Shown in pieces: positions 3,152 to 13,716 of a stretch of 44,418 bases of DNA. The DNA comes from a virus. Made by a program: the position numbers and the translations under genes. The notes beneath the pieces are model-generated. The model ran no database searches. It was not told the origin of the DNA and saw nothing but the letters and a program-made list of their open reading frames with translations. The first letter of the stretch is position 1. Each line of letters opens with the position of its first letter. The stretch covers positions 1 to 44,418 of the IMG/VR virus record IMGVR_UViG_3300029258_002369, one strand, 5' to 3'.

Positions 3152-3278
3152 AATCGAACCTATTTTCTCAAAAACCGGGGGCTCAATGAGGACCTGACCC
3201 AATCCCCGGACCATCGATCCTCGGGCCTCAATGTCTCCCGGTCAAACGGACCTGATCTCAGTGTTGAGGAAAGGCCTA

Positions 3279-3313: not shown

Positions 3314-3389
3314 GTTCGGATTTCGTTGAGGTTTCCTTTCGGCCTCAGCCCGGGTCAACACCCTCCCAGTTGGCCCGGGCATTTTTTTT
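3314..3389 (+). ncRNA. Candidate small RNA or attenuated leader
   Basis: The interval from the predicted start of the 3279 promoter to the end of the terminator T tract is about 75 bases and has no open frame of useful length with a ribosome site. It holds a small GAGG/CCTC hairpin (about 3328-3346) followed by the terminator hairpin. Either it is a discrete small RNA or it is an attenuator through which early transcription must read. No known RNA family is recognised. Confidence 0.4.
3348..3389 (+). terminator. Strong rho-independent terminator, plus direction
   Basis: GCCCGGGTCAAC (3348-3359) pairs with GTTGGCCCGGGC (3369-3380) over 12 base pairs with one U-G wobble and a 9-base loop. It is followed by A and eight T residues (3382-3389). 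It lies upstream of the first early gene, so it cannot serve the end of a coding operon and must close a short transcript. Confidence 0.85.
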
Positions 3390-3400
3390 GCTCAAAATGG

Positions 3401-3429
3401 TTGACTTTCGCTTTTTTCGGTAGTAAGCT
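3401..3429 (+). promoter_or_regulatory. Candidate promoter of the early block
   Basis: TTGACT at 3401-3406, a 17-base spacer and TAAGCT at 3424-3429. The -10 is poor. The spacer contains the recurrent motif TTTCGCTTTTTTC (3406-3418). It is the last promoter-like sequence before the first early gene at 3538 and lies downstream of the terminator at 3348-3389. Confidence 0.4.
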
Positions 3430-3986: not shown

Positions 3987-4397
3987 ATGAAAGTATTAGA
4001 GGAACACCGCAAGCAATGGCAACCGTGGATCAATTTGCATAATCGGAGTCGGTCAAGAGATTATCGAAAAATAATCAAAGAAACTCCCTCGAAATTTAGG
4101 CCCCTTGTTGCCGCGATTCTCGCCGTTGCAAAATGGCATCCCTTACAAACAAAGTTTAGAATTGGGCACGGTTCTTGCGGTTTGTGCGTCCAGTATCGAC
4201 ACGGAAATGGGCATTGTGGGAAATGTCCTCTCCCCAAAAAGGATAAAGGGAAACGATGCACAAGCATTGACTCTCTTTATACTGCTGCAACGTACTACAA
4301 CCCGAATCGGGATCTATACAGGTCAAGAATGTTCAAAGCTCTCTATTCGATCTATGTCGATGAATACGAGAAACTCTTTGGGGAGGGATCAAAATGA
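3987..4397 (+). CDS. Cys-rich early protein, probable zinc binder
   Basis: 136 residues. The centre has C-x2-C (CGLC) and C-x2-C (CGKC) pairs about 15 residues apart, followed by a further Cys (KRCTS), a four-cysteine zinc-knuckle pattern. The flanks are helical and basic (HNRSRSRDYRKIIK). GGGAGG precedes the ATG. The last codons overlap the next gene by 4 bases. It may be related to the four-Cys modules in the genes at 4394, 11948 and 21051. Function unknown. Confidence 0.7.
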   Translation: MKVLEEHRKQWQPWINLHNRSRSRDYRKIIKETPSKFRPLVAAILAVAKWHPLQTKFRIGHGSCGLCVQYRHGNGHCGKCPLPKKDKGKRCTSIDSLYTAATYYNPNRDLYRSRMFKALYSIYVDEYEKLFGEGSK

Positions 4398-5170
4398 GTA
4401 ACATGACGATCGTACATCTCAAACTCAATGAGATCATGCTCAAGATCGGTGAGCACATTGGTCAAGGGTATTACAAATATACCTTGAGAGAAAACAAACT
4501 CATCATTGAGGAGTTTGATCTAGCTCTTGTCGAATTCATTGAGAGAGCGGTCAAAGACGCAATCGAGGATCGGGAAACGTTTGACCGGGATCCCGATCCC
4601 CCGCGGGATCGTGTTTCATTTCCTATCGATCTCAAAACCCGTTGTTGTGAGTTGTGCTCTCATTTTGAAGAGCATAGTAATGAGACGGGTCGATGTAACC
4701 AATTCGACAACGCTACAGTTTACAAGCCGTATTGTTGCTCCCGATTCCTGAGACGTGTCAAGCCCATTTGTCAGAATTGTGACCACTTCGATCCCATCAA
4801 CGGGGCTCAAGGGACTTGCGGTCTTGATGAGGAGGTAAGGACGCGGGTCCATACCTGTAAGCAGTTTCAATACACCGTCAAGGACTCAGACATTGAGCGA
4901 GAGGCCCCGGCCCGTCCCCCGGACCGCTGCTCAGACTGTCAACACGAATTCAAGCGCAAGCCCCCAACCCTTGAGCCCCTCAGGTTGTGTCCCTTTTGCG
5001 GATCTGACGCGATCGAGGTCACTGTCAAAGGAGGCTGGGTCACTGTTTGCTGTCTCAACTGTCACCGTCCGGGTTGCCCATATGACACAACCGGGCCTTT
5101 TGCATCAACCAAAAAAGAAGCGATCAAGGCCTGGAATCTGAGAGCTTTTGAGACGGGGGATGACTCATGA
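4394..5170 (+). CDS. Multi-zinc protein with C-terminal Lar-like anti-restriction domain
   Basis: 258 residues. After a helical N-terminus come two similar four-Cys modules (CELCSHF...GRC...CCSRF and CQNCDHF...GTC...CKQF), then CSDC. The last 60 residues read LCPFCGSDA...VCCLNCHRPGCP...AIKAWN, the pattern of the Lar restriction-alleviation zinc ribbon family (CPFCG, C-x2-C, then a closing AW-N). Lar-type proteins of lambdoid phages and Rac modulate type I restriction, but many phage members of the family are untested. The tail is clearly Lar-like. The role of the front modules is unknown. Confidence 0.75.
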   Translation: MSNMTIVHLKLNEIMLKIGEHIGQGYYKYTLRENKLIIEEFDLALVEFIERAVKDAIEDRETFDRDPDPPRDRVSFPIDLKTRCCELCSHFEEHSNETGRCNQFDNATVYKPYCCSRFLRRVKPICQNCDHFDPINGAQGTCGLDEEVRTRVHTCKQFQYTVKDSDIEREAPARPPDRCSDCQHEFKRKPPTLEPLRLCPFCGSDAIEVTVKGGWVTVCCLNCHRPGCPYDTTGPFASTKKEAIKAWNLRAFETGDDS

Positions 5171-9851: not shown

Positions 9852-9937
9852 GGACGATCAAAGCTCTTGTAACCTCATTGCTTGAGTTTCTTGAGGACTA
9901 TTTTTGTGAGTCCTATGAGGATGAGGAGATCGATTGA
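9848..9937 (+). CDS. Tiny acidic protein
   Basis: 29 residues (MRTIKALVTSLLEFLEDYFC, then an acidic tail ending EDEEID). It shares ATGA with the gene before and its stop shares TTGA with the TTG start of the gene after. The double overlap and the lack of any gap argue that it is translated. No function is recognised. Confidence 0.5.
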   Translation: MRTIKALVTSLLEFLEDYFCESYEDEEID

Positions 9938-10377
9938 CCTCAAAGCGCAAAAAAGGCCCGTACAAAACCCGGGCTGAGAAAATTCTCAGCTTGCTTTCTC
10001 GCAATCGGCAACGCTGGTTAACCTGTAGGCAAATCGGGTCAATGCTCGTCTCAAGAAAAGCGGTCCCCAGGCCAACAACTCAACGGGAGGTCAAGTTGCT
10101 CATGGGATCAGTTGGGACAACCCTCAGATATATGAGGGAGCGGGGGCAAATCGATCACCGTCTGATCCGTGAGACCCGCTATGAGTATAGAGCTTTTCGA
10201 GTCGATAGTAATCACGAGAATATTTGTTGTCACCTTTGCCGCTCAACTGATGATCTCGATCGGTATCGGGGAAAATGGCATTGCCGAAACTGCCTCATAG
10301 GTGAGGAGGATAACTCTGCAACGGTGCAAGCGCTGACCTCAACCGGGGGCTCAAATTTGGGACTTGCGAGCAAATGA
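9934..10377 (+). CDS. DNA-binding protein with C-terminal zinc knuckle
   Basis: 147 residues from a TTG start at 9934 that forms a TTGA overlap; GGAG lies 6 bases upstream, which decides the start. The N-terminal part is basic (TSKRKKGPYKTRAEKILSLL) and looks like a winged-helix region. The C-terminal part has CCHLC...WHCRNC, a four-cysteine zinc ribbon. It may act as a transcription regulator or replication accessory. The stop overlaps the methyltransferase start. Confidence 0.65.
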   Translation: MTSKRKKGPYKTRAEKILSLLSRNRQRWLTCRQIGSMLVSRKAVPRPTTQREVKLLMGSVGTTLRYMRERGQIDHRLIRETRYEYRAFRVDSNHENICCHLCRSTDDLDRYRGKWHCRNCLIGEEDNSATVQALTSTGGSNLGLASK

Positions 10378-11345
10378 GGAGACTCAATGAGCTGGCATTA
10401 TTTGCGGGAGGGGGAGGCGGTTTGCTCGCCTCATATTTATTGGGATGGAAAACGATCGCAGCGGTTGAAATCGATCCCTATTGCCGAAAAATCCTCTTGC
10501 AAAGACAACGCGATCAAATCCTTGAACCTTTCCCGATCTGGGATGACATCAGAACGTTTAATCCGTTGCCTTTCAAGGGTTGTATTGATGTGGTTAGCGG
10601 GGGATTCCCCTGTCAGGATATCAGCGCGGCAGGTAAAGGTAAAGGATTGTCCGGGGAACGTTCAGGCCTTGTTTTCGAAATGCTCAGAGTTGTTGAGACA
10701 ATACAACCTGAGCTTGTTTTCGCGGAAAACTCTCCGCTTTTGCGCTCCCGTGGTCTCAACGTTATCCTCAGAGAATTTAACCGCATGGGGTATCATGCTT
10801 GCTGGGGAGTGCTGGGAGCTGGGGACCTCGGTGCACCGCACAAAAGAAAAAGAATGTGGATCGTTGCCCAACTTGCCAACTCCAACCGCTCAGAGTTACG
10901 GGAGCAACCGGGGAGGGGCTGCAGGGAGGACGGGCAAAGTGAGACATTCTTTGCAGTCGATGGCGAGTCAAAACAATTGGCCAACCCCCCGGGCAAGCGA
11001 CGCGGATCGGGGAGGACGTGGGGAGTTACTGGGAAAGATCAGAGGTACAAAAGGCTACCGGGGGATCCCAACCCCAACGGCAAGAGATTACAAAGACGGA
11101 TCCGCTCAGAGTTGCAAAAATGTCCCGGTCAATTGCTTGCTGGGGAGGCATGTACACACGATGTCAAACACTCAACAAACTGGGTCATTGAACCCGAATT
11201 GGGTAGAGTGGCTGATGGGGTGGCCTATCGGGTGGACCGAATCAAAACCCTTGGCAATGGGCAGGTTCCGATCGTGGCTTGCGTTGCATGGAATATCCTC
11301 AGTGAAATGCTCAACGAAAAAAGATCAACGATCCCGCTCTTTTGA
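10374..11345 (+). CDS. C5 cytosine DNA methyltransferase
   Basis: 323 residues. Motif I is ALFAGGGGG (about 8-16), motif IV GGFPCQDIS with the catalytic Cys near residue 79, motif VI AENS (usual ENV) near 118, motif VIII HKRKRMWIVAQ near 160, and the closing motif X-like RIKTLGNGQVP near 300. It transfers a methyl group from S-adenosylmethionine to cytosine C5, probably to protect phage DNA from restriction. No restriction endonuclease is adjacent, so it is an orphan enzyme. The variable target-recognition region (about 170-280) is Gly/Pro/Arg-rich and overlaps a second frame with conserved-looking sequence (see 10387-11355). Confidence 0.9.
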   Translation: MRRLNELALFAGGGGGLLASYLLGWKTIAAVEIDPYCRKILLQRQRDQILEPFPIWDDIRTFNPLPFKGCIDVVSGGFPCQDISAAGKGKGLSGERSGLVFEMLRVVETIQPELVFAENSPLLRSRGLNVILREFNRMGYHACWGVLGAGDLGAPHKRKRMWIVAQLANSNRSELREQPGRGCREDGQSETFFAVDGESKQLANPPGKRRGSGRTWGVTGKDQRYKRLPGDPNPNGKRLQRRIRSELQKCPGQLLAGEACTHDVKHSTNWVIEPELGRVADGVAYRVDRIKTLGNGQVPIVACVAWNILSEMLNEKRSTIPLF

Positions 11346-11355
11346 ATTATTTTGA
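10387..11355 (+). CDS. Overlapping +1 frame reading frame inside the methyltransferase gene
   Basis: 322 codons are open in the +1 frame across the whole methyltransferase gene. The ATG at 10387 has GAGGAG 5 bases upstream, a better site than that of the methyltransferase ATG at 10374. The first half looks like a shadow. From about residue 160 the sequence contains LPTPTAQSYGSNRGG, WPTPRASDADRGG, PTPTARDYKDGS and LNPNWVEWLMGWPIGWT, patterns I know from phage methyltransferase-associated proteins. The other frame of the same DNA has the expected closing methyltransferase motif. The product may be a separate protein or a frameshifted C-terminus. Confidence 0.5.
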   Translation: MSWHYLREGEAVCSPHIYWDGKRSQRLKSIPIAEKSSCKDNAIKSLNLSRSGMTSERLIRCLSRVVLMWLAGDSPVRISARQVKVKDCPGNVQALFSKCSELLRQYNLSLFSRKTLRFCAPVVSTLSSENLTAWGIMLAGECWELGTSVHRTKEKECGSLPNLPTPTAQSYGSNRGGAAGRTGKVRHSLQSMASQNNWPTPRASDADRGGRGELLGKIRGTKGYRGIPTPTARDYKDGSAQSCKNVPVNCLLGRHVHTMSNTQQTGSLNPNWVEWLMGWPIGWTESKPLAMGRFRSWLALHGISSVKCSTKKDQRSRSFELF

Positions 11356-12950: not shown

Positions 12951-13277
12951 ATGCAAGCAAGGATCGTCTTTGACATGAAGATCGCCTCAGTGGAATTTCG
13001 AGGCATGGATGAGATCGAAAAGACAGTGAGCAAAGCGCTCAAGGCTCATCTTGCCTCTTTGACTGGGGGCAAGAAAAGGGGACGGAAGCCCGGATCGAAA
13101 ACCGCCACAAAGGCAACCGCGACAAAGAGCAAGACTCCCGCGACAAAGAGCAAGGCTCCCGCGAAAAAGGCTCCCGCGAAAAAGGCCAGCAAGAGCAAGG
13201 CTCCCGCGAAAAAGGCTCCCGCGAAAAAGGCAACAACCGCGAAAACCGCTCCCATTCCCAGCGGTGAGAAATTCTAA
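12951..13277 (+). CDS. Histone H1-like Lys/Ala-rich protein with AT-hook
   Basis: 108 residues. The first 40 form a small domain (ARIVFDMKIASVEFRGMDEI). Then GGKKRGRKPGS is an AT-hook-like RGR core, followed by a Lys/Ala/Pro tail of repeated KAPAKKAP units, like the tails of bacterial histone H1-like proteins. It would bind AT-rich or bulk DNA without sequence specificity, perhaps as a phage nucleoid or transcription-silencing factor. AGGAG is 8 bases upstream. The repeated codons form a tandem DNA repeat at about 13120-13235. Confidence 0.8.
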   Translation: MQARIVFDMKIASVEFRGMDEIEKTVSKALKAHLASLTGGKKRGRKPGSKTATKATATKSKTPATKSKAPAKKAPAKKASKSKAPAKKAPAKKATTAKTAPIPSGEKF

Positions 13278-13314: not shown

Positions 13315-13716
13315 ATGAAAGTCCAGATCACAATCGAGACCCCTGAGGAGCTCAAAAAGTTTGCGAGCTTGCTTGAGGAAAAGAAACCCCGTGGACGGCC
13401 CCCAAAGAAAAAGGTCAAGGACCCTGAGCCCGATCCTGAGCCTGAGGAGGCTGAGCCTGAGGAAACTGAGGAGGATCCTGAGCCTGAGCCCAAAAAGAAG
13501 CGCAAGAGCAAGGCCAAGGGCAAGAGCAAGTCAAAGAAAAAGTCTGAGGGGGTCACTTTGCGTCAGTTGCGAAAGGCCGCAAACACCTATGCAAAAGAAA
13601 ACGGCCCCGATGACATTGAGGAGATTCTTGAGGAATATGACATTGACTCCCTCAATGACCTTGATGAGTCAGACTATGAGGAGTGTCTTGCGAAGATCGC
13701 TGAGCTGAGCGATTAA
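13315..13716 (+). CDS. AT-hook protein with acidic and basic low-complexity middle
   Basis: 133 residues. An N-terminal helix (ETPEELKKFASLLEEKK) is followed by PRGRPPKKK, a canonical AT-hook core, then an acidic Pro/Glu run (about 37-60), a Lys/Ser basic run (about 61-79) and a folded C-terminal region of about 50 residues (TLRQLRKAANTYAKENGPDD). It sits 37 bases after the H1-like gene and has its own AAAGGAG site. The pair suggests a shared DNA-architectural task. The C-terminal domain is not identified. Confidence 0.75.
   Translation: MKVQITIETPEELKKFASLLEEKKPRGRPPKKKVKDPEPDPEPEEAEPEETEEDPEPEPKKKRKSKAKGKSKSKKKSEGVTLRQLRKAANTYAKENGPDDIEEILEEYDIDSLNDLDESDYEECLAKIAELSD

Follow-up and report, generated by a model that had tools for sequence, protein, structure and literature searches.

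The window analysed here, a virus record of 44,418 bases taken at its full length, contains a locus in which two reading frames of the same strand lie open across about 970 bases. This arrangement raises the question of whether the second frame is a gene in its own right and, if so, how its product relates to the enzyme encoded by the first. The initial annotation, made from the sequence alone, had described a cytosine methyltransferase gene (frame A) overlapped by a +1 frame (frame B) and had offered two explanations, overprinting or a programmed frameshift that exchanges the target-recognition end of the enzyme. Both frames run as it described; the ribosome-site-like GAGGAG located 5 bases before the frame B start codon was found as well, and the three peptides that it had quoted from frame B are all present there (Table 1). 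From the analyses described below, we consider it likely that the locus specifies a C5 cytosine methyltransferase of two polypeptides whose frames overlap fully, with frame A encoding a chain termed alpha and frame B a chain termed beta. The start codon of alpha overlaps the stop codon of the upstream ORF, and translational coupling of the two is possible. The same genome also codes for a primase-polymerase/helicase, a family A DNA polymerase, a single-strand binding protein and a contractile-tail virion. Terminase large-subunit ORFs are found at both contig ends (136-1737 and 42234-43979, both on the minus strand, 91% identical); the genome may be circular and closed by a strain variant, or the assembly may be chimeric. 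A repeat protein rich in Lys, Ala and Pro (KAPAKKAPAKK) is encoded at 12951-13277 (+), and its neighbour at 13315-13716 (+) has a Glu/Pro-rich stretch followed by a Lys-rich one.

Table 1 Features of the overlapping-frame locus, in window positions
Feature	Positions	Strand	Description and evidence
Alpha ORF (frame A)	10374-11345	+	323 aa; C5 methyltransferase; motifs I-VIII of the large domain, then an unconstrained middle and motif X; PF00145, phrog_363, codon-position pattern, AlphaFold
Beta ORF (frame B, +1)	10387-11355	+	322 aa; leader under little constraint, then the first conserved part, the predicted recognition modules and motif IX; phrog_1008, open in 77 of 80 A-selected loci
ATGA overlap	10374-10377	+	Alpha ATG and TGA stop of the upstream ORF (9934-10377); from sequence
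GAGGAG, ribosome-site-like	10376-10381	+	5 bases before beta ATG 10387; sequence and scan of starts
Motif I, ALFAGGGGG, frame A	10395-10421	+	Alignment
Motif IV with catalytic cysteine, GGFPCQ, frame A	10599-10616	+	Invariant in alignment A2
Doubly constrained part: motifs VI-VIII of A, first conserved part of B (SRKTLRFC...WGIMLAGECWEL)	10695-10851	+	B excess z 12-22; profile test 66 of 67 clusters; radical/conservative ratio 0.53
Motif VI, FAENS, frame A	10719-10733	+	Alignment
Motif VIII, HKRKRMWI, frame A	10839-10862	+	Alignment
Beta module 1, LPTPTAQSYGSNRGGAAGRTGKVRHSLQSMASQNN	10873-10977	+	70% identity with module of L004
Beta module 2, WPTPRASDADRGGRGELLGKIRGTKGYRG	10978-11064	+	73% identity over 22 aa with module of L012
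Beta module 3, IPTPTARDYKDGSAQSCKNVPVNCLLGRHVHTMSNTQQTGS	11065-11187	+	77% identity over 30 aa with module of L091
Motif IX, frame B, LNPNWVEWLMGWPIGWT	11188-11238	+	Profile alignment with ordinary C5 methyltransferase motif IX; B codon pattern
Motif X, LGNGQVP, frame A	11250-11270	+	A3/A1 substitution ratio 10.7; AlphaFold helix 297-319 just after

The openness of the second frame is not a product of chance. After the synonymous codons of frame A in the window are shuffled, the +1 frame holds 7.0 stops on average and its longest open run is 120 codons, whereas the real run is 321 codons (0 of 200 shuffles). Nearly all of 80 related loci selected through frame B have both frames open; since this set is biased by its selection, 80 viral loci picked via a frame-A profile were used as the unbiased set. 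Frame B is present as a single open +1 ORF in 77 of these A-selected loci, and its three consecutive segments hold 0, 1 and 0 stops where 119, 99 and 89 are expected (1 versus 307 in total), with no depletion in the remaining frame (540 stops versus 490 expected). The same test applied to 30 ordinary full-length C5 methyltransferases returned 94, 111 and 193 stops with 101, 114 and 196 expected. Because the ordinary enzymes lack the effect, stop avoidance is specific to this dual-frame family and cannot be ascribed to methyltransferase motifs as such. Chance openness is ruled out by the codon shuffles, the A-selected loci and the ordinary-enzyme control. The other unread frames were also tried as controls and did not discriminate, as constraint at the DNA level lifts all frames. 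They too score above their own shuffles, which indicates that shared ancestry adds signal and inflates profile tests; the case presented here is therefore built on codon positions, modules and stop avoidance, with codon-position rates, the module test and the ordinary C5 methyltransferases in place of the unread-frame controls.

Separate database searches of the two frames, as the initial annotation had suggested, gave a distinct answer for each. Frame A is a C5 cytosine methyltransferase, matching PF00145 (E 2.9e-34) over residues 8-173 only and phrog_363 (E 2.8e-59). Motifs I, IV (PCQ), VI (EN), VIII and X are all in frame A and mostly invariant in alignment A2, and the chain terminates with RIKTLGNGQVP. 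In the AlphaFold model of alpha, residues 1-175 are confident, residues 297-319 form a mostly confident helix and most of 178-290 is disordered; compared with M.HhaI, the model aligns with the large domain only, over about 172 columns. In the window, the recognition region and motif IX do not lie in the same chain as the PF00145 domain, given that the Pfam match stops at residue 173, the codon pattern of that region belongs to frame B and alpha is disordered there. Frame B matches phrog_1008 ("DNA methyltransferase", E 1.1e-24) and, at its end, two short phage families, with no match in Pfam or NCBIfam. AlphaFold produced a poor model of B (mean pLDDT 56) that matched no solved fold, and a profile search of the PDB with B returned nothing credible.

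Constraint was computed for each frame from the ratio of substitutions at the third and first codon positions of frame A (A3/A1) in 114 related pairs with a mean A identity of 67%. The ratio is 1.2-3.9 over motifs I-VIII, 0.55-0.84 in the middle of the gene, 0.12-0.44 at motif IX and 10.7 at LGNG. As position A1 is position B3, the low values in the middle and at motif IX are the pattern of frame B, so that constraint switches from A to B and back to A along the gene, a switch seen again in 19 independent pairs. The recognition region and motif IX thus bear the B pattern, and the codon patterns place the target-recognition end in the +1 frame, as had been proposed. One statement of the initial annotation needs amendment. 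A peptide conserved in both frames had been placed at about 11180-11270; there, motif IX has the B codon pattern and frame A takes over at motif X.

Further comparisons delimit where frame B is constrained. Among changes that are synonymous in A, the ratio of radical to conservative B rates is 0.53 at A residues 95-165 and 1.06 at residues 1-95. The excess of B conservation over synonymous shuffles is pronounced at the start of B (z 12.7), low over residues 12-99, strong at 108-147 (z 12-22) and high again from 164. Leave-out profiles scored 111 bits versus 18.5 shuffled for the recognition region (67 of 67 clusters), 90 versus 47 for the part preceding it (66 of 67) and 99 versus 76 for the B leader (46 of 67). 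The leader (about residues 12-99) is accordingly under little residue constraint, and it is open in 64 of 68 genome loci where 26 are expected. The start of B is conserved, as the frame A codons at that place show: Asn is encoded by AAT, which contributes to ATG in frame B, in 36 of 36 clusters, and Arg by CGT, which contributes to GTG, in 9 of 12. In more distant A-selected relatives the leader has 33 stops versus 42 expected and so fails to stay open, unlike the next part (0 versus 21); internal starts are possible in them. There are accordingly a long-beta type, to which the window belongs, and a short-beta type. The residues of frame A in the B-coding middle are free of constraint although the frame stays open, with 0 stops versus 356 expected (80 of 80 B-selected loci open, 1.5 expected) and, in genome loci, 27 versus 245. 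At the level of sequence, these patterns show both frames to be under selection and map the constrained stretches of each.

The second half of B is a string of mostly 1-6 modules, each starting with (W)PTP, and this region is probably the target-recognition region. The modules of 150 loci include 21 recurrent types and show 80 distinct arrangements, the types being defined by single-linkage clustering in which the largest cluster is chained. The identity of whole B to relatives is mostly 26-39%, versus 70, 73 and 77% for the three window modules, each in a different relative; the modules appear to be shuffled between phages. The 476 module pairs, picked by B similarity, are 72% identical in B, against 34% in A and 35% in the third frame, and the nucleotide identities at B positions 1, 2 and 3 are 0.74, 0.80 and 0.43. 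The C-terminal part of B reads LNPxWVEWLMGWPxGWT, followed by a tail, and aligns in register with motif IX (LTPRECARLMGFPDxF) of ordinary C5 methyltransferases, the match being short (probability 30%, P 5.6e-4). This result comes from a profile-profile alignment, which replaced a short motif IX profile scored on ordinary enzymes that proved too weak.

These results bear on whether frame B could be an untranslated shadow, kept open and conserved in appearance by the constraint on frame A together with codon bias. Such a reading is exceedingly improbable. It agrees with the finding that over the first 95 codons radical B changes are as frequent as conservative ones, and with the signal that shared ancestry adds to the other unread frames, but it is already contradicted over the second half of B by the codon signature of the recognition region and by the module identities (72% versus 34%). 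Stop avoidance, moreover, is absent from ordinary C5 methyltransferases. Overprinting, the first of the two explanations offered initially, is strongly supported by the stop avoidance, the codon-position switch and the module identities.

The second explanation, programmed frameshifting, would have ribosomes pass from A to B after motif VIII and return to A before motif X to make one full-length enzyme. All motifs would then be in one chain, and a single-frame relative with the same order does exist (L178, a fusion with the order I-VIII, WPTP modules, IX, X). In four relatives (L147, L164, L177 and L183) frame A stops right past motif VIII and motifs IX and X both lie within the B ORF, so that a single +1 shift would complete the enzyme. 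In the window, however, two shifts would be required, and frameshifting gives no need for A to remain open through the middle (0 stops versus 356), for B to be open and conserved upstream of motif VIII (conserved from about codon 104) or for B to have a conserved start of its own. A frameshift would need each frame only on its own side of the shift, and both are kept open beyond it. Two separately started polypeptides account for all three features and a frameshift product requires none of them, so that frameshifting is disfavoured and, in our estimation, quite unlikely.

M.HhaI-like enzymes carry motifs I-VIII and X in the large domain, with the recognition region and motif IX in the small one (PMC3404938), so that the boundary between the frames corresponds to the boundary between the domains. 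From the constraint switch along the gene and the AlphaFold model of frame A, alpha is most likely the large domain and beta the small (recognition) domain of an M.EcoHK31I-like two-polypeptide enzyme. We propose that alpha would fold as the catalytic large domain with motifs I-VIII, continue through a disordered stretch that would be merely the out-of-frame reading of the beta gene, and end with motif X packing back onto the large domain. Beta would be translated separately from its own ribosome site and start, and would consist of the free leader and a small domain made up of the conserved first part, the exchangeable array of (W)PTP modules and motif IX. The two chains would then assemble and methylate cytosines in sequences picked by the beta modules, and this methylation would probably shield the phage DNA from host restriction. 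At 4394-5170 (+) the window also encodes a protein that carries a Lar restriction-alleviation domain at its C-terminus (PF14354, E 3e-11), which fits a restriction-escape role without proving it.

Beta might instead be a real protein with a role separate from that of alpha, such as DNA-binding regulation or antirestriction, and be no methyltransferase subunit. The alpha-beta complex is one that we infer, and in two relatives the B ORF continues into another enzyme domain, both of which would suit a separate role. Alpha, however, has neither motif IX nor a folded small domain while B ends with motif IX; the fusion in L178 joins B modules and motif IX to a catalytic domain, and in four relatives motif X itself lies in the B ORF. 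A beta acting apart from alpha is therefore improbable, and the two-polypeptide enzyme is the reading that we prefer. In the two relatives with a continued B ORF, the downstream domain is an N6/N4 DNA methylase (L002, 2998-4650; PF01555, E 2.1e-51) and a family A DNA polymerase (L089, 1942-4563; PF00476, E 2.2e-23), respectively, joined in frame to beta; a separate start for the downstream gene is possible.

Related ARRANGEMENTS have the layout of the window in 252 of 279 fetched loci (duplicates included); the four loci with motifs IX and X in the B ORF and the L178 fusion belong to the same set. Mycobacterium phage Aubs (gp70) is one of the dual-frame phages. Matches to B were obtained in phage records of Acinetobacter, Vibrio, Klebsiella, Salmonella, Pseudomonas, Rhizobium, Lacticaseibacillus and others, in examined phages of Mycobacterium, Porphyromonas and Microcystis, and in one Leptospira plasmid. 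Contigs of genomes from many bacterial phyla and a few archaeal bins also contain matches, and some of the bins may carry stray phage contigs. The Mycobacterium phages Graduation, Papez, A1SD1 and Fushigi (L190 1361-1681, L275, L276 and L277) have motifs IX and X in the annotated frame A, and their methylase gene contains an unannotated +1 ORF of about 107 codons that is limited to the first B domain and one PTP module. In two loci (L068 at about 3240-3265, with ten G, and L174 at about 3380-3415) the two frames change places at a G-rich stretch close to motif IV. Phase variation was considered as an explanation and set aside, as only two loci are concerned and sequencing error is possible. 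The annotated records that were checked have only one of the frames annotated, usually A. In Stenotrophomonas phage SOVA965 (L193) the annotated DNA-cytosine methyltransferase is the beta frame (1228-1728) and the catalytic frame (1005-1748) is unannotated.

If the two-polypeptide reading is true, many phage cytosine methyltransferases are annotated with one of their two subunits only, expressing a synonymously re-coded version of the annotated gene would yield an inactive enzyme because beta is destroyed, and searches for recognition domains have read the wrong frame. The modules would also offer a testable code between sequence and methylated site. More broadly, we see roughly an even chance that full-length overlap, with one folding domain and one open but free half in each frame, is a widespread phage gene design. 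Modules would exchange in B while A need only avoid stops, so that a multi-target specificity subunit would evolve within the very gene that encodes its catalytic partner and be missed in annotations. To our knowledge, long same-strand overlaps with both products under selection have rarely been established in DNA phages and bacteria; as the present arrangement recurs in phages and prophages of many hosts, it provides a large natural data set on overlapping genes.

A search of the open-licence literature found no paper on a wide phage family of this kind, on full-length overlap, on a recognition region in the second frame or on its modular exchange. The full-length overlap, the recognition region in B, the shuffling of modules between phages and the breadth of the arrangement are apparently new. 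Multispecific C5 methyltransferases of Bacillus phages have several exchangeable recognition units in one protein and resemble the present family in this respect; they differ in being single-frame, single-chain enzymes, and the function of the (W)PTP modules is predicted here. A known case of a phage methylase gene with another protein encoded out of frame is a mobile insertion, whereas the second frame described here lies across the gene core and contains motifs of the enzyme. The gene for the large chain of M.EcoHK31I (YGGCCR) contains the small chain in a different frame, as the alpha gene of the window contains beta; that small chain is short, whereas beta overlaps alpha end to end. Two-chain C5 methyltransferases are already known in M.EcoHK31I and M.AquI (PMC3404938). 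Likened by described motif layout, M.EcoHK31I has motifs I-VIII and X in the large chain and IX in the small chain (PMC3404938), as do alpha, which lacks IX, and beta, in which IX is a short match. Its recognition region is predicted in the large chain (PMC3404938), whereas the codon patterns place that of the window in the small chain. M.AquI (CYCGRG) likewise has two chains, the smaller holding motif IX and part of the recognition region (PMC3404938); it carries motif X as well, which in the window is in alpha; the M.AquI-like distribution of motif X is found in the four relatives in which frame A stops after motif VIII, but in overlapping frames. M.HhaI itself is one chain in one frame, and it is to the large domain of this enzyme that alpha corresponds, while motif IX of beta aligns with that of ordinary single-chain enzymes.
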